This document shows positions 6,555-13,043 of a stretch of DNA of 64,000 nucleotides, one piece after another. The stretch spans positions 310,001-374,000 of the forward strand of contig NZ_CAJQTX010000006.1 in NCBI RefSeq assembly GCF_907163085.1. The letters are read 5' to 3'. The notes under the pieces were generated by a model. That model had not been told where the DNA came from. It did no database searches and saw nothing but the letters and a program-made list of their open reading frames with translations. Numbering within the stretch: position 1 is the stretch's first letter; each line of letters opens with the position of its first letter. Source of the stretch: Candidatus Accumulibacter sp. ACC003. Lineage in GTDB: Bacteria; Pseudomonadota; Gammaproteobacteria; Burkholderiales; Rhodocyclaceae. The position numbers were made by a program, and so were the translations under genes.

Positions 6555-7550
6555 ATGGATCACACGGCCGCTACGGCTCAGACTCTGGATTTGCACCGCC
6601 TGGAGTTGCGCTACGCCGATCTTCGCGTGCTGGATACGGCGGCGATCACGCGTCTGGCCCAGTCGATCGCGGTCAATGGCCAGCTCGTCCCGTGCATCGC
6701 GGTCGCCGGCGAGGGAAACTCGGCGATCCTGCTCGACGGCTATCGACGCGTCGCCGCGTTACGGCAACTCGGCCGGGATACGGCCGAGGTCGAATGCTGG
6801 GACGGCGATCCGGTGCAAGGCCTGCTGGGCGTGTTGGCACGAACCCGCAGCCGCGCGTTTGCGCCGATCGAAGAAGCGCTGCTGCTGCGCGAACTGATCG
6901 CCAGCGGCCCCCTGAGCCAGCATGAAATCGCCCGCCGCTGCGGCCGCGACGTGAGCTGGGTCAGTCGCCGCCTGCAACTGGTGACGGTCCTCTCGGACGC
7001 GGTGTTGACGGCGATACGCCAGGGAAAGGTCTCGACCTGGGCGGCGGTGCGGATTCTCGGCCCGTTGGCGCGCGCCAACAACACCCATGCCGAACAGCTA
7101 CTGGAGAGTTTGCACACGACGCCGCTGACGACCCGGCAGCTGGCGACCTGGTTCGCGCACTATCAAGGCGCTTCGCGGACGGTGCGCGAGCGGATGGTCG
7201 AGGCGCCGCAACTGTTGCTCAATTCGCTGACCGCCAAGGCCGACGAGAAGAGCGCCGAGCGCCTGCACCAGGGTCCAGAAGGCGAGGTGCTGGCCGACAT
7301 CCGCATTCTCGACGCGGTGGGCGCCCGCTTGACTCGGCGTCTGTTCGCCCTGGCGCCCTCGCCAGCGGAGCTGCCGCCCGCCATCACCGCCGCGGTCGGC
7401 GCTTTGCAATTGGCGCTGGCGTCTCTCCAGTGCCATCTGAGGAAGGTATGCCCCGATGAAATCGCCCGAAATTCATCAAGCCGTGCAGACACTGCATCAG
7501 CAAGGTCTGGCGCTGCGCGAGATCAGCCGGCTCTTGAAGCTCTCGCGTAA
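6555..7550 (+). CDS. ParB-like DNA-binding protein of the IS21-like element
   Basis: The product has 331 residues. Residues 8-105 form a ParB/Srx-type N-terminal domain: paired LELRYADLRV, LAQSIAVNGQLVPCIAV, then LLDGYRRVAALR, where the ParB GxRR box is present. A helix-turn-helix of the ParB/KorB kind follows (LSQHEIARRCGRDVSWVSRRL). A perfect AGGAGGT site lies ahead of the ATG. The C-terminus overlaps the start of istA by 95 bases, which is unusual; the last 30 residues may be an artefact of a lost stop. It is not a chromosome or plasmid partition gene: there is no ParA nearby, and it sits between the zinc-motif gene and the transposase. A second copy lies at 19028-20356. A role in target choice or transposition control is inference. 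Confidence 0.75.
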   Translation: MDHTAATAQTLDLHRLELRYADLRVLDTAAITRLAQSIAVNGQLVPCIAVAGEGNSAILLDGYRRVAALRQLGRDTAEVECWDGDPVQGLLGVLARTRSRAFAPIEEALLLRELIASGPLSQHEIARRCGRDVSWVSRRLQLVTVLSDAVLTAIRQGKVSTWAAVRILGPLARANNTHAEQLLESLHTTPLTTRQLATWFAHYQGASRTVRERMVEAPQLLLNSLTAKADEKSAERLHQGPEGEVLADIRILDAVGARLTRRLFALAPSPAELPPAITAAVGALQLALASLQCHLRKVCPDEIARNSSSRADTASARSGAARDQPALEALA

Positions 7551-8156
7551 CACCGTTCGCCGTATCTTGCGCTCGCCCGTGGCGGCTCCGCCCGATACCG
7601 CAGAGGGTGCGCGGCCAGCCGCGTGCCCGGCGCCTGTCGCGTGCCCGGCGCCGGTTCGGCTGTGGCTGGTCTCGGCCTTCGAGCGCGCGCGCGGCAATGG
7701 GGTGCGGATCCAGGAGATGCTGGCGGCGGAGCTGGACCTGCGTCCGGGCTACAGCACGCTGACCCGCTGGATCCGCGAAGCCGATCTGCGCACGCCGCCG
7801 AAACGCGCCGGCGAATATTACTTCGCCAGGAGATGCAGCACGACACCTCGCCGCATCGCGTGATCCTGGCCGGCAAGCCGCTGACGGCGCAATGCGCGTC
7901 ACTGATCCTGGCGTACTCGCGGCGGCTCTTCGTTCAGTACTTTCCGCGTTTCACGCGTTTCGAAGCCAAGCAGTTCCTGCTCGAAGCCGTCCGTTTCATG
8001 GCCGGCAGCTGCCCGACCTGCGTCATCGACAATACCAGCGTGATCGTCGTCGCCGGGGCCGGCGACGAGGCCGTGTTCGCGCCCGAGATGGTCGCCCTGG
8101 CACGTACGCTGGGCTTCGCTTTCCGCGCGCACGCGGTGAACAAACCCGATCGCAAG
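7456..8156 (+). pseudogene. istA: istA N-terminal part (IS21-family transposase), frameshifted and interrupted
   Basis: The first 125 residues carry an N-terminal helix-turn-helix (LREISRLLKLSRNTVRRIL) and lead to GEYYFA. There a single missing base after 7827 shifts the frame. Restoring it gives EMQHDTSPHRVI, the first catalytic Asp of the DDE core. The second Asp is in CVIDNTSVIV, followed by FAPEMVALARTLGFAFRAHAVNKPDRK. Right after RK (8156) the sequence switches to the inserted serine-recombinase element, and the rest of the protein continues at 11501. The transposase is therefore dead twice over. The start ATG has a GAGGAAG site and overlaps the ParB-like gene. Confidence 0.85.
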
Positions 8157-8177
8157 GAGTGTGCTGCATATTGCACC

Positions 8178-10256
8178 TCATGCGGTATGTGCGGGGAAAC
8201 TTCCCTCGCGGGTGGTTGATTTGCCTGTGGTTTTGCCTTGATGTTGATGCTTGATCGGCGTGTCAGAATCAGGCAGTTCGAAGAGGTAGCCGCCCCTGTC
8301 GTCATACTTGTGCGCTTTGAGCAGGCCGGCGCGGCGCCAGTATTTGAGGGTGTCCGAACAGATGTCGAGACGCTGTGCCATTTCATGCAGGGTCAGCAAG
8401 CCACGTGTCTGCAGGCGATCATGACGACTGGGGAGCGCATAGGCCATTCGGATGTGACGAACCATCAGGCGATGCAAGGGTTTGCCCTCGCCCGAGAGCA
8501 AGCCCTGGCCGTTGAGCAAGGCGGCGATTTCGCCGTCGGTATGATCTTCCAGGAGTCGGTCAATCTCGGCCACCACCTTGGCCGGTGTCTGGCGCAGCAG
8601 CCAGGCCGGCTTGGGCGGGGGAAGGTGTAGCGTGTGCGTCGCACCGCCGTGAAAGCGCACTTGCGCCCGGACCCCGCTCTCCTTGAGCAAGGTGACATCG
8701 GCAATCAGCAGGCGAGCCATGCGTTTGCGCTCCCGGTCAGCCGTATGGGGATCGTTCCACAGTCGCGGGAAGTCTTTCGCCAGCGCCAGGATGGCGGCGC
8801 GCTGCTGGTCGTCGAGCCCGGTCTCGCTCTCGCGCTGTTTGTCGTAGTGCTCCTGGGCCGCCGTCTGGTTGCGCAGCGCCTGGTTCCATTCCGCTTCCAG
8901 CGAGTCGGCGACCAGGCGGTTGTCGGGATCGCAGCGCATATACCGGCGGCGTGCCAGATCGGACTCGTAGCGTGCCCGTTCAACGGCTTGACGGCGCAAG
9001 CGGTCGCTTTCCTCGGAGCGACTCTCCAGTTCCTTCTGCACGGCCAGCGCCACCTCCAGGGTGACCGGGGTCACCGCCTCCACCAGCAAGCGGCCGATGG
9101 CCGCGTCGAGTTCGCCGCCCACGATCTGCTGACAGATAGGTTCGGCATGCGCGACACCGTGGTGCTGACAGAGATAATCCGGCACGCGCCGTGCGCCTTG
9201 CAGGTGATAGCGCACGGTCATGCGATCACCACACTTGGCGCAGATCAGCAATCCCTGTAGCAGCGCCGGCCCTTCACGCGGCGGGCCCCGATCACGCCCC
9301 GCGGCCGGCCCCTGGGTATTGTCACGCAGGATCTGGAGGTTCTGCTCGTACTCGTCCCAGGTGATGTACCCGGGGTGGGCGTCACGAATCAGCGCGATCC
9401 ATTCTTCCGTCGGCAGCCGTTGATGCTGGCAAGAACCGTCGGGCCGTTTGCGTACGCGCGTGCGTCCAAAGCAAAAGGCGCCGGTATAACGCGGATGATG
9501 CAGAAGCCATAGCGCGCGCGAGTGTTCGAGATCAGTCCACAACAGCTCGCCGGTTTGGGGGCCGCGGTAAATCCGGTGCGGGAAGCTCAGCCCTTCGGCA
9601 CGAAAGGCCTTGACCGTCGCCGTCGCCGAGCCGGTGCGCCGAAACGTCCGGAAGAACTGGCGCAGGCTTTCCTGAACACGGACATCGGGATCCAGACGGA
9701 CGCGCCCGGCCGGATCGTAGTCAAAGCCAATCGGCAAGCGCATCTCCAGTTCGCCACGGCGTGCCTTGTTGAGGATGCCGCCGCGTAACCGGGCCCGCAA
9801 GACGTGCAGCTCGGCTTCGCTCATCGTTCCCTTCAGACCGAGCAGCAAGCGATCATTGAAGTGCGCCGGGTCGTACACCCCGTCCTCGTCCAGGATCAGC
9901 GTGTCGGCCAGCGCACAGATTTCCAGGAGGCGGTGCCAGTCGGTCGAATTGCGCGCCAGACGCGACACTTCCAGGCCCATGACGATTCCCGCCCGCCCCA
10001 GACCGACCTCGCTGACCAGATGCTGGAAACCTTCGCGATCCACTGCACTCGCGCCCGATTGCCCGAGATCAGAATCGATGACGATGACTTGATCGAGACG
10101 CCACCCCAGCGCCACGGCCCGCTCGCGCAAAGCATACTGGCGCTTGGTACTCTCGGTATTCTCGAGGACCTGGCGCAGTGTCGACTGGCGCACGTAGAGA
10201 TAGGCATTTCTCTTGAGGTGTCGTGCCTGCACTTTCGCGTGTGTCTCACCCATCAT
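8178..10256 (-). CDS. Large serine recombinase
   Basis: The 692-residue protein has a resolvase-type catalytic domain (residues 15-165). It contains AYLYVRQST with the nucleophilic Ser, DSDLGQSGA, GLEVSRLARN and a regulatory-helix region. A recombinase domain follows, then a zinc ribbon (CAKCGDRM ... YLCQHHG ... C) and a coiled-coil-like charged region. The C-terminus has a MerR-like helix-turn-helix (LTLHEMAQRLDICSDTLKYWRRAGLL). Such enzymes catalyse att-site integration and excision through 2-base staggered cuts. Its ATG overlaps the stop of the small gene before it. Its TGA (8178-8180) overlaps an ATG at 8179-8181, which opens toward the element end and may start the DUF5372 frame in a circular form. 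Confidence 0.9.
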   Translation of the reverse strand: MMGETHAKVQARHLKRNAYLYVRQSTLRQVLENTESTKRQYALRERAVALGWRLDQVIVIDSDLGQSGASAVDREGFQHLVSEVGLGRAGIVMGLEVSRLARNSTDWHRLLEICALADTLILDEDGVYDPAHFNDRLLLGLKGTMSEAELHVLRARLRGGILNKARRGELEMRLPIGFDYDPAGRVRLDPDVRVQESLRQFFRTFRRTGSATATVKAFRAEGLSFPHRIYRGPQTGELLWTDLEHSRALWLLHHPRYTGAFCFGRTRVRKRPDGSCQHQRLPTEEWIALIRDAHPGYITWDEYEQNLQILRDNTQGPAAGRDRGPPREGPALLQGLLICAKCGDRMTVRYHLQGARRVPDYLCQHHGVAHAEPICQQIVGGELDAAIGRLLVEAVTPVTLEVALAVQKELESRSEESDRLRRQAVERARYESDLARRRYMRCDPDNRLVADSLEAEWNQALRNQTAAQEHYDKQRESETGLDDQQRAAILALAKDFPRLWNDPHTADRERKRMARLLIADVTLLKESGVRAQVRFHGGATHTLHLPPPKPAWLLRQTPAKVVAEIDRLLEDHTDGEIAALLNGQGLLSGEGKPLHRLMVRHIRMAYALPSRHDRLQTRGLLTLHEMAQRLDICSDTLKYWRRAGLLKAHKYDDRGGYLFELPDSDTPIKHQHQGKTTGKSTTREGSFPAHTA

Positions 10257-10531
10257 GGCTGGCTCTCCCTTGCCATCGCCAGCGTCATGTTGGCGACGAG
10301 ATGAATCAGGTTCTGCTCGATCCCCGCCGGTAAGCGCGACTCACTTGGCGAGGCGGCGGGGATCGGACGCGGGGCGGTCTCGTCCGCGCCGCGCATCCAG
10401 GCCGCCATCCCTTTGAACATCAGCAGCGCGCGCCCGTGCACACCGCGCCCGCACAACTCGACCACGTCTTGCCGCAAGGACTCGTAACGCTCGGCCAGCG
10501 TGTGGCCACCGATCACCGTAGCGGCTTTCAT
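10253..10531 (-). CDS. Small conserved protein of the recombinase element
   Basis: The product has 92 residues, begins MKAATVIGGHTLAERYESLR and ends in VANMTLAMARESQP. I do not recognise a family. It has no membrane segment or cysteine cluster and is mostly helical in character. Its start overlaps the end of the helix-turn-helix gene, and its end overlaps the recombinase start, both in ATGA-like fashion. This tight coupling marks it as part of the recombination operon. A recombination directionality factor or recombinase partner is a reasonable guess from size and position, but nothing in the sequence proves it. Confidence 0.55.
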   Translation of the reverse strand: MKAATVIGGHTLAERYESLRQDVVELCGRGVHGRALLMFKGMAAWMRGADETAPRPIPAASPSESRLPAGIEQNLIHLVANMTLAMARESQP

Positions 10532-10995
10532 GGGTGTTTTTTTTTGCTCCGGGCCAGAGCCCGTTCCACGGTCCGCCGATGGACGGCCAGCCCGAAGTGC
10601 TGCGCGATCCTCTCGACCAGAACCTGGGCCTCCAGGCCTTCTTCCTGGGTGCGTGCCGTTTCGATGAAGGCCATCACCTCGGCGGTGATCTTGTGCGGTC
10701 CGTGCGGTCCCCGTTTAGCCGGCAGCAGCCCCGCCAGACCGGCCCGTTCGAAATCTGCCTGGACCTTGTAGAAAGTCGGCCGGGAGACCCCGAAGCGCGT
10801 CGCGATGTCGGCAATGCTCTGACCCTCGGTGCGTACCCGACGCAGCATCTCGTAACGCACCTGCACCAAATCCCGCGCATCGAAGAAATCGCTGCCGATG
10901 AAGGCGGCATCCTGCACGTCCTGCGCATGCGGATTCACGGTGCCGCTCTCTGCCAGCGCAAGGAGCTTGAGGTCGGGTTTGAAGGAGTGGGCCAT
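10528..10995 (-). CDS. Helix-turn-helix protein of the recombinase element
   Basis: The 155-residue protein has a clear helix-turn-helix in its middle (QSIADIATRFGVSRPTFYKVQADF). A following stretch resembles the second helical domain of transposase-type repressors (ITAEVMAFIETARTQEEG, HFGLAVHRRTVERAL). It lies first in the three-gene overlapping operon with the serine recombinase, downstream of an AT-rich stretch (10996-11160) that probably holds the promoter. A DNA-binding regulator or an element-end binding protein is the likely role. It could also derive from the N-terminal half of an IS481/IS630-like transposase that was domesticated; no DDE core follows. Confidence 0.65.
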   Translation of the reverse strand: MAHSFKPDLKLLALAESGTVNPHAQDVQDAAFIGSDFFDARDLVQVRYEMLRRVRTEGQSIADIATRFGVSRPTFYKVQADFERAGLAGLLPAKRGPHGPHKITAEVMAFIETARTQEEGLEAQVLVERIAQHFGLAVHRRTVERALARSKKKHP

Positions 10996-11165
10996 GTGTA
11001 ATTTAAATTATGTCAAACATTGCACGACGTCAAGGGATATTTGTGAGAATCTGACGATAACCCAAGGATTATTATCCACTATATGCCCGCCAATACGCCT
11101 TCTAGAGGCCGGACCACGAGCCTGGCCTCGTCAAACAAGGCATAATTGTCTTTACATCGACGGCA

Positions 11166-11500
11166 TTATTTACTTGACACTTTCCGCGACCGCGGACGCG
11201 CCCTGAGGGCACCCTTGGCCTCGTTCTGGCGGGCAATCAGCGCCACGAGGTGCAAGAGGTGGTCGACGCGGAAGTGCGAGCGTCCGGCCGACACCCTCTC
11301 GAACGGATCTGGCGCAACCGCGTTGGTCCAGGCGGCCGTCAGGCGGCGTACCCGGCCACTGTCATCGTGAAAGTAGACGCGCTCCTCGCCCCAGGCATTG
11401 CGCCGCTCGATCAGAACGAACTCGCGTCCGAAGAGGGGGTGGAAGGGATGGGTGACCTGAAAGACTTCTTGCCCATCGACTGCATCACGTGCAGTCGGCT
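11166..11500 (-). CDS. DUF5372-family protein lacking a start codon in the integrated element
   Basis: The frame encodes VTHPFHPLFGREFVLIERRNAWGE, then RVYFHDDSGRVRRL, W.....PDPFERV.AGRSHFRV.HLLHL. This matches the DUF5372 family, small proteins often seen near serine recombinases. No ATG, GTG or TTG occurs in frame between the element end (11500) and the conserved domain. The open frame continues outward only through antisense istA sequence, so the gene as integrated has no proper start. Joining 8157 to 11500 in a circle would put the ATG at 8181, which overlaps the recombinase stop, in frame with this domain. The family assignment is from memory; the circle model is inference. Confidence 0.6.
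11478..11496. repeat. Dyad at right end of the serine-recombinase element (candidate attR)
   Basis: GACTGCA (11478-11484) is followed after 5 bases by its inverse TGCAGTC (11490-11496). A weaker dyad with TGCA halves lies at the other end (8165-8175). Position at the element ends and dyad symmetry suggest recombinase binding sites. Confidence 0.45.
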
Positions 11501-12232
11501 GCTCATTTGAAGGGGAGGATTGAAAGACCTTTTTCCTGGATCGAAGGCAATTTCCTGGCCGGCCGGACGTTCCGCGATTTCGCCGACCTGAACGCGCAGG
11601 TGCTGGCCTGGTGCGAGAACGTCGCCAATGCCAAACCGAAGCGCGCTCTGGGGGTGGCGCCAAGCGCCGCCTACGCCGTCGAGAGGCCTTGCCTGCAGCC
11701 GCTGCCGGCGGTGCTGCCGCCGGTCTATCAAGTCGTCGAGCGGGTGGTCGATCTGCAGGGCTTCGTGTCGCTTGAGACGAATCGCTATTCGGTGCCCGAG
11801 CGCTGGGTGGGCAAGGCGCTGAGCGTCTATCTGTATGCCACCGAGGTCAGGGTCTGCCGGGGTGAGCAACTGCTCGCCGTGCATGCCCGCCTGCTTGGCG
11901 TGCGCGATACGAAGCAGAAGCTCCCCGGGCATCACCCGACCCCGCAGCCGCGGCCGCGCACGCCGCCTCGCGAGGCGACATTGTTGCAGGGGCACGACCC
12001 GCTGCTCGATGCGTATGTCGCCGCGCTGGTCCGGCAGGCGCATGGCCGGGGGGTGCGACCGCTGCGCCGCTTGCTGGACTTCAAGCGGACCTATCCGAAG
12101 GAGCCTTTGCTGGCAGCCGTGGCACAGGCGCTGCAGTTCGGTCTGTTCGACATGGGTCGCCTGGAGCACATGATCCTGCAGCAGGTGGCGGGGGATTTCT
12201 TCAATCTCGACGATGGAGGTGATGATGCGTGA
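11501..12232 (+). pseudogene. istA: istA C-terminal part
   Basis: This piece starts with AHLKGRIERPFSWIEGNFLAGRTF, which holds the catalytic Glu of the DDE triad (RIERPF) and continues the frame that stops at 8156. After the core come the Mu-C-like beta-barrel (GFVSLETNRYSVPERWVGKALSVYLYATEVRV) and the C-terminal region ending in FFNLDDGGDDA. Fully joined and frame-corrected, IstA would be about 475 residues, a normal length for the family. Its stop lies inside the beginning of istB, the usual IS21 overlap that couples translation. In the present arrangement this part has no start of its own. Confidence 0.85.
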
Positions 12233-13043
12233 GCGTCTGAAGGCTTTGCTTGGGCAGATGCGCTGGTCGGGGATGGCGGCGGTGCTCGATGCGGAACTCG
12301 ATTTGGCCGAGCGCCAGGGGACGCCGGTTCCGGAGGTGCTCTTCCGTCTGCTCGGCGCGGAAGACGCGGCCCGACGTGAGAAGAGTCTGGCTTATCGCCT
12401 GAGCCAGGCGCATTTGCCTTGGCCGTGGACCTTGCAGTCGTTTCCGTTTGCGCGGCAGCCGAGCGTGAACAAGGCGCAGGTGATGACGCTGGCCGGACTG
12501 GAATTCCTGCGCCGGGGCGAGAACGTGTTGTTGATCGGTCCGCCGGGGACCGGCAAGTCCGGGATCGCGCTGGGATTGCTCCGTGAAGCGTGTCTGAACG
12601 GTTATCGCGCACGCTTCTTCAACGCGCAGGCTTTGCTCGACGCCTTGTATGCCTCGCTTGCCGATCGCTCGACGGTGGGCCTGCTCAACCAGTTGTGCCG
12701 CATGCCGCTGATCGCCATCGATGAACTGGGCTACCTCAACCTGAAGCCGGAACAGGTCAACGCCTTCTTCCGCCTGATGGATCAGCGCTATAGCCTGGGG
12801 CTGTCAACGCTGATCACGACGAATCTCGATCTGCCCGACTGGTACGAGCTGTTTCAGAGGAAGCCGCTCGTCGATGCGCTGCTCGACCGACTTCAGCATC
12901 GTTGCATCATTCTGCGCTTGAGCGGACCGTCTTTGCGCAGTGAGCCAGAAAGCGCTGCGACGATCGCGACCGAGGCCTCGACAGCGGCGGCTAAACGCTC
13001 GGCGTCGAGGAACATCGCCACGGACGAGTCCTCTGCGTCCTGA
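12225..13043 (+). CDS. istB: IstB-like ATP-binding helper of IS21-type transposition
   Basis: The product has 272 residues. It is an AAA+ ATPase with Walker A GPPGTGKS, Walker B PLIAIDELGYL, sensor region STLITTNLDL and an IstB-type N-terminal helical domain. IstB assembles on target DNA and activates the IstA transposase. I chose the ATG at 12225 because the GGAGG at 12215-12219 is 5 bases ahead; ATGs at 12213 and 12222 are also in frame. The C-terminal 35 residues are rich in Ala, Ser and Thr and probably lie outside the fold. The gene is intact although its partner istA is broken, so it could serve other copies of the element in trans. Confidence 0.9.
   Translation: MRERLKALLGQMRWSGMAAVLDAELDLAERQGTPVPEVLFRLLGAEDAARREKSLAYRLSQAHLPWPWTLQSFPFARQPSVNKAQVMTLAGLEFLRRGENVLLIGPPGTGKSGIALGLLREACLNGYRARFFNAQALLDALYASLADRSTVGLLNQLCRMPLIAIDELGYLNLKPEQVNAFFRLMDQRYSLGLSTLITTNLDLPDWYELFQRKPLVDALLDRLQHRCIILRLSGPSLRSEPESAATIATEASTAAAKRSASRNIATDESSAS

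Follow-up and report, generated by a model that had tools for sequence, protein, structure and literature searches.

The TnpX transposons Tn4451 and Tn4453 have a large serine recombinase, a circular form and a 2-bp target (PMC3158075). In the integration-dependent immunity described for mycobacteriophages, the attachment site attP lies inside a coding gene, so that integration alters the product (PMC9262239), and in ICEKp1 the excised and integrated forms are reported to differ in integrase transcription through promoter exchange (PMC13023037). The element analysed here lies in a 64,000-nt stretch of the Candidatus Accumulibacter sp. ACC003 genome (the window; contig NZ_CAJQTX010000006.1, positions 310,001 to 374,000) and is a large-serine-recombinase transposon of the kind known from the Sinorhizobium plasmid pNGR234a. 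Very probably, it is a site-specific transposon whose attP falls inside the first codons of its fourth gene, a member of the DUF5372 family (PF17342), which would be complete only in the circle. The anatomy, the reading frame, the conservation and the selection that carry this reading can be seen in the sequences themselves; excision would make a circle, the operon transcript would cross the joint and translation would start there.

A gene divided between the two ends of the element

The element occupies 8156..11511 on the minus strand (3356 bp, one core copy included) and interrupts istA of an IS21 insertion sequence. The original prediction had set its ends at 8157 and 11500; comparison with empty sites and with relatives instead identifies a core, AA, which reads TT on the minus strand and is found at 8154-8155 and again at 11510-11511, and the exact crossover probably falls at these 2 bp within AAGG. 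The window genome holds the element in three copies, every one at the same istA position of IS21, and four more istA copies are empty, with GATCGCAAGGGGAGG spanning the site. Over 3355 aligned nt the three copies show no mismatch and a single one-base gap in one copy, whereas in their IS21 flanks between 10 and 54 of roughly 1500 nt differ on the left and between 0 and 14 on the right, which points to a recent move or copying of the element separately from the left flank of the IS.

DUF5372 is divided between these ends. Its 3' part (11166..11511, minus strand; Pfam E = 2e-26) has no start codon of its own and, as the original prediction held, its frame contains no ATG, GTG or TTG from the element end to the conserved domain. 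The 5' part (8154..8169, minus strand) consists of an ATG (8169-8167), three codons, CC and TT, so that this end reads GAGGTGCAAT-ATG-CAGCACACT-CC-TT on the minus strand. When the ends are joined in silico at TT, this ATG, which is preceded by a Shine-Dalgarno-like GAGGTG (8174-8179), opens a 119-aa frame, MQHTPSNEQPTARD...FQVTHPFHP. The start had been sought in another ATG (8181-8179), which reads outward and overlaps the recombinase stop TGA (8180-8178). Both the overlap and the frame of that ATG were confirmed, since it too is in frame with DUF5372 once the ends are joined; however, the conserved and probable start is the second ATG, 12 nt downstream. By the layout of the DNA, DUF5372 should be readable only after excision of the element and closure of the circle, and with these corrected coordinates (probable start 8167-8169) the interpretation first offered is supported.

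The core is flanked by attachment-site (att) arms. The right arm, GGTGCAAT (8170..8177, minus strand), and the left arm, ACTGCACG (11488..11495, minus strand), mirror each other, each 14 nt from the core. The commonest 8-mers are arranged as GGTGCAGT-N14-TT-N14-ACTGCACC, with a left variant ACTGCACC/G. Such a short core with arms symmetrical about it is characteristic of large serine recombinases.

Conservation of the start codon among relatives

In a scan of genome contigs with the recombinase, the best 80 of 133 relatives were kept, and DUF5372 was matched at 74 of these 80 loci. The relatives come from Accumulibacter, Paraburkholderia, Bradyrhizobium, Polaromonas, Acidobacteria, Chloroflexi, Planctomycetota and others. 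Once one window-genome copy and four plasmid records had been added, both genes and the right-end motif were present in 64 elements. The gene order DUF5372, helix-turn-helix (HTH) protein, small protein and recombinase is found in the window and in L012.

The tail of the recombinase gene was surveyed at 95 loci, near-identical copies counted. A recombinase stop was present in 88, and the right arm was recognised, with variants, in 85 of them, the list of arm variants having been drawn from tails already seen. No start codon was required by this search, and the trinucleotide directly behind the arm is ATG in 65 tails, GTG in 14 and another in six; in those six the next codon is TTG (four) or ATG (two). 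The three tails without a recognised arm contain an ATG as well. Four loci (L046, L055, L057 and L059) share a variant in which CAG stands behind the arm and the presumed start, TTG, one codon on. Relative to the first base of the recombinase stop, the start lies at -8, -1, +4, +11, +14, +34 or +37 nt; for these offsets, as for the longest-frame and Glu-codon counts below, the right-end search demanded ATG or GTG. The recombinase stop shifts among relatives, and the start, the following 9 nt and the core stay fixed. It is therefore the start that is conserved and not the ATGA overlap, which was rejected as a conserved signal. Among plasmid loci inspected by eye (Rhizobium, Alloyangia, Rhodococcus, Chlorohelix, Bradyrhizobium and Caballeronia), seven of ten further ones, those seven being readable at both ends, have the same layout.

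Two relatives differ in gene arrangement. On a plasmid of Candidatus Chlorohelix (L126), the recombinase directly follows DUF5372, and no HTH or small-protein gene is listed between them. L093 has two recombinase genes of this family in tandem and a single DUF5372 match upstream of the first.

Reading frame across the joint and selection on DUF5372

The original prediction called for in-frame junctions, and these were found with two ways of choosing the core that are blind to frame. In the first, a TT was accepted wherever the target had a Glu codon at a set distance from it. All 44 elements having such a site (26 clusters; L047 is doubtful among the 44, its left end being damaged) include an in-frame one. 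Counting every site, 44 are in frame and 4 and 1 lie in the other two frames; four of these five out-of-frame sites occur in near-identical Polaromonas copies and one in L075. In the second, the core yielding the longest restored open reading frame (ORF) of the target was taken, and the joint was in frame in 33 of 37 clusters. Two of the exceptions, L017 and L062, have a poor target ORF, yet are in frame at the Glu motif; of the other two, L058 has no core at the usual place and the core of L060 is one base short. The figure of 37 clusters treats L013, L017 and L062 as separate, since only short stretches of recombinase entered the comparison; full regrouping at 80% recombinase identity gives 34 representatives. 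In these, the start is followed after 21, 23, 24 or 25 codons by the THP motif, and over this interval stops are absent from the DUF5372 frame (0 of 815 codons), as against 39 and 49 of 781 codons in the other two frames.

Judged from the ratio of nonsynonymous to synonymous substitution (dN/dS), DUF5372 is under purifying selection: the values are 0.12-0.41 in 16 pairs of related elements. Those of the recombinase are 0.05 to 0.32 in 15 of the 16 pairs and 0.95 in the pair L002-L017, for which only the C-terminal piece of a frame-shifted copy was compared; recombinase values for all pairs with L013, L017 or L062 rest on the C-terminal piece. The DUF5372 values imply that the protein is used, though most integrated copies offer no start.

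The same data bear on an explanation that treats the open joint as a by-product, with the right end kept only as recombinase-binding DNA and as the C-terminus of the recombinase, and with DUF5372 as a relic. Indeed, the arms GGTGCAGT and ACTGCACC mirror each other around the core, and in some elements the recombinase frame extends past the start codon. Yet the trinucleotide at the corresponding place beside the left arm, taken in the direction of the core, is a start codon in 0 of 58 cases, only the DUF5372 frame is free of stops, and dN/dS of DUF5372 does not exceed 0.41 in any of the 16 pairs. We consider a by-product highly improbable.

Points that weigh against a circle-only gene

Several observations count against confinement of DUF5372 to the circle. 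The gene might be translated in the integrated state too, from internal GTG, ATG or TTG codons or from starts in the antisense strand of the target, the joint adding an N-terminal extension only. Twelve of the 34 representatives have one or two in-frame ATG, GTG or TTG codons (mostly GTG) between core and motif, and annotation starts some copies there, as at GTG in pNGR234a. Moreover, the frame extends without a stop far into the target (226, 226 and 484 codons in the window genome), so that chimeric starts are possible; in the window it continues on the antisense strand of istA, in which a frame of 165 aa begins at a TTG (11663). Yet in the other 22 representatives this interval is free of start-like codons. 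Where internal start-like codons exist, they are at differing, unrelated positions, mostly without a well-spaced Shine-Dalgarno sequence as judged by eye, and they cannot account for the conserved start at the other end. In addition, DUF5372 is missing from the genes listed at the match in four plasmid records, the gene table of PLSDB being incomplete. Translation of this kind in the integrated state seems unlikely to us.

A second point concerns GAGGTG, which overlaps the att arm GGTGCAGT. This arm has a mirror copy at the other end, and the conservation of GAGGTG may for that reason serve the recombinase; one sequence may serve both recombinase and ribosome. The overlap weakens the argument from the ribosome site, and not that from the start codon, since the arm is mirrored and the start codon is not. 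Third, pooled pN/pS is 0.54 in the leader, compared with 0.29 in the whole protein. Fourth, the counts of joined frames are partly circular, since they used in-frame distances only or cores set by hand after inspection (L012, L014, L032, L033, L067, L075, L089 and L090), which does not apply to the two frame-blind choices. With this limit, an ORF of at least 85 aa runs through the THPFHP motif in 57 of the 58 elements with an assigned core, the sole exception, L084, being in frame with a stop inside the domain, and all 34 representatives form one continuous DUF5372 ORF when joined in silico. Six of the 64 elements are uncounted: no core was found in L029, L070 and L085, and L047, L058 and L060 were excluded by hand as damaged.

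Finally, the joint itself did not turn up in databases. None of the 76 plasmid records matching a joint query covers 80% of it, the joint DNA is absent from 28 genomes of the genus (3 with the element), and the joint pattern has no match in 369 genomes of the class (the number holding the element not being established) or in IMG/VR. Likewise, the original prediction expected genomes with DUF5372 directly downstream of the recombinase, and none was found in the fetched loci, plasmids, genus, class or IMG/VR; in the fetched loci, none of 91 recombinase entries has DUF5372 within 600 nt downstream. Absence of the joint from assemblies would be expected of an element that is nearly always integrated when sequenced. 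In IMG/VR, a search with a single recombinase gave no loci and an alignment search gave three, including L132, an ordinary integrated copy, and in phage records there were 69 weak matches, none covering 80%. Element-length contigs were considered as candidate circles and rejected: L018, L026 and L091 end at the core, and fetched loci shorter than 4.2 kb never repeat their first 20 bases, so that these contigs look like collapsed repeats. That an excised circle exists is what knowledge of the recombinase family would lead one to expect.

Target sites

A left flank is available for 49 of the 58 elements with an assigned core. In 43 of the 49, belonging to 25 of 30 clusters, a Glu codon stands exactly four codons past the Lys or Asn codon that contains the core AA; at other offsets a Glu codon is found in 79 of 2623 cases (3.0%). 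Examples of the resulting motif are KGRVE, KAVVE, NAVME, NPYVE and NIVE, and we take it to be the one holding the third catalytic residue of DDE enzymes. All 13 restored targets with the motif that were scanned match DDE-type transposases: eight match IS21, IS3, IS481 or ISNCY transposase models (two of them, being pieces, just below or below the curated cut-off), and five carry rve, rve_3 or IS66 domains. By annotation, rhizobial relatives lie in or beside IS66 tnpB. The six elements without the Glu motif (L065, L068, L069, L072, L073 and L076) seem to have another target. In L068 this looks like the gene of an ISCR/IS91-type Y2_Tnp protein, which scores below the cut-off of the ISCR model and whose orientation with respect to the element is reversed; L065, L073 and L076 show a similar motif by eye. 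Overall, repeated transposase genes seem to serve the element as landing sites, each being disabled by the insertion.

Gene content and proposed mechanism

The element in the window carries four genes only. Besides DUF5372, these encode, all on the minus strand, an HTH protein (10528..10995) with HTH_23, HTH_28 and HTH_32 matches and weak, below cut-off similarity to IS481, IS630 and IS21 transposase models; a small protein of 92 aa (10253..10531) that matches neither a Pfam nor an NCBIfam family at E 0.001; and a large serine recombinase of 692 aa (8178..10256) with Resolvase, Recombinase and zinc-ribbon domains and a C-terminal MerR-like HTH. The combination of PF00239, PF07508 and PF13408 in the recombinase is that of large-serine-recombinase elements. 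The HTH, small-protein and recombinase genes overlap by ATGA, in agreement with the original prediction. A sigma-70 scan of the gap between DUF5372 and the HTH gene, and so of the region before the HTH gene, gave no site. A DUF5372 profile search against solved structures returned nothing below E 0.75, and a literature search on DUF5372 returned no paper, which is a statement about that search and not about the wider literature.

We propose that integration cuts DUF5372, taking its ribosome site, start and first few codons to the right end behind the recombinase and leaving its body, now lacking a start, at the left end. While the element is integrated, the HTH, small-protein and recombinase genes would be complete and read outward, and the orphan start would lead into at most a few element codons followed by antisense target. 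Excision would join the ends at the TT core and restore a continuous gene, placing DUF5372 last in a circle operon of HTH, small protein, recombinase and DUF5372, and the same transcript would then run on into it. DUF5372 would thus be translated from the circle or from a tandem copy, and not, or hardly, when integrated.

As to its role, we guess that the circle is where DUF5372 acts. It would most likely work as a partner of the recombinase, promoting integration or the choice of target, and be silenced once integration has succeeded. The same anatomy could serve another role, in which DUF5372 is a lock of the directionality-factor type that opposes integration in the circle, so that integration, by cutting the gene, locks itself in. 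Directionality factors also inhibit integration, and splitting the factor's gene would make integration self-stabilising. Moreover, the reverse reaction of serine integrases requires a directionality factor (PMC5737554). An excision factor, however, ought to be present while the element is integrated, and in that state DUF5372 has no start. We regard a lock as possible, if doubtful, and rank it second to an integration partner. More broadly, and tentatively, we suggest that the elements form a widespread family that preys on other transposons, inserting just ahead of the catalytic Glu codon of their DDE transposases, with DUF5372 as a topological sensor, present only in the circle, that licenses the next integration and is shut off by its own crossover.

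The interrupted IS21 copy

The element separates a 5' part of istA (7456..8153, plus strand) from a 3' part (11512..12232, plus strand) that begins within the K-G-R-I-E motif, and istB of the same IS21 copy follows (12213..13043, plus strand; Pfam IstB_IS21 E = 1e-50). As originally claimed, istA is in frame across the insertion site; further upstream, around 7830, the window and copy L003 lack 7 nt of istA relative to the empty copies L006, L008 and L010, so that the window istA is broken apart from the insertion of the element. Immediately before istA lies a ParB/KorB-like gene (6555-7550; HTH_ParB E = 1e-7). By coordinates, six further full matches to it occur at six other IS21 copies, and elsewhere there are one near-full and two partial matches; since matches recur at the other IS21 copies, this gene may belong to this IS21-like element.

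Significance and comparison with known systems

If the circle-only reading of DUF5372 is true, PF17342 is explained as a gene that standard annotation must miscall, since the true start is reached only by crossing the ends of the element, some 3 kb away, and the element offers a simple DNA logic for a protein of the excised state only, without promoter switching. The recombinase family finds conserved catalytic-motif codons in several insertion-sequence families, so that each insertion knocks out the transposase it hits. With a site so short and so widely distributed, such recombinases may also be of interest in the search for new integration tools.

The element of Sinorhizobium fredii pNGR234a (NGR_RS29820-29835) has the same gene order, att layout and in-frame joint as that of the window. 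It is inserted in an ISNCY-family transposase gene, at the Lys codon that precedes the KGRVE motif, its recombinase is 52% identical to that of the window in alignment, and its internal GTG is the annotated start of DUF5372. Its genes are presumably those named y4bA-y4bD and y4pH-y4pK; a literature search on y4bA and y4pH found nothing relevant, and one on serine-recombinase elements in transposase genes or split genes gave no title or start of an abstract describing this arrangement. ICEKp1 differs in being an integrative and conjugative element, and the abstract of that report mentions no split coding gene (PMC13023037). With the mycobacteriophage immunity systems the family shares, as judged from sequence, an attP within a gene. 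Those phages use a tyrosine integrase at a tRNA gene, with truncation of the repressor, whereas here a serine recombinase acts at transposase genes and the start is removed. Truncation of the phage repressor means the loss of a degradation tag. Furthermore, Pfam finds only DUF5372 and no repressor domain in 52 of 52 members, bar four single weak hits. In Tn4451 the joint of the circle forms a promoter, whereas in the window element it would form a coding start.

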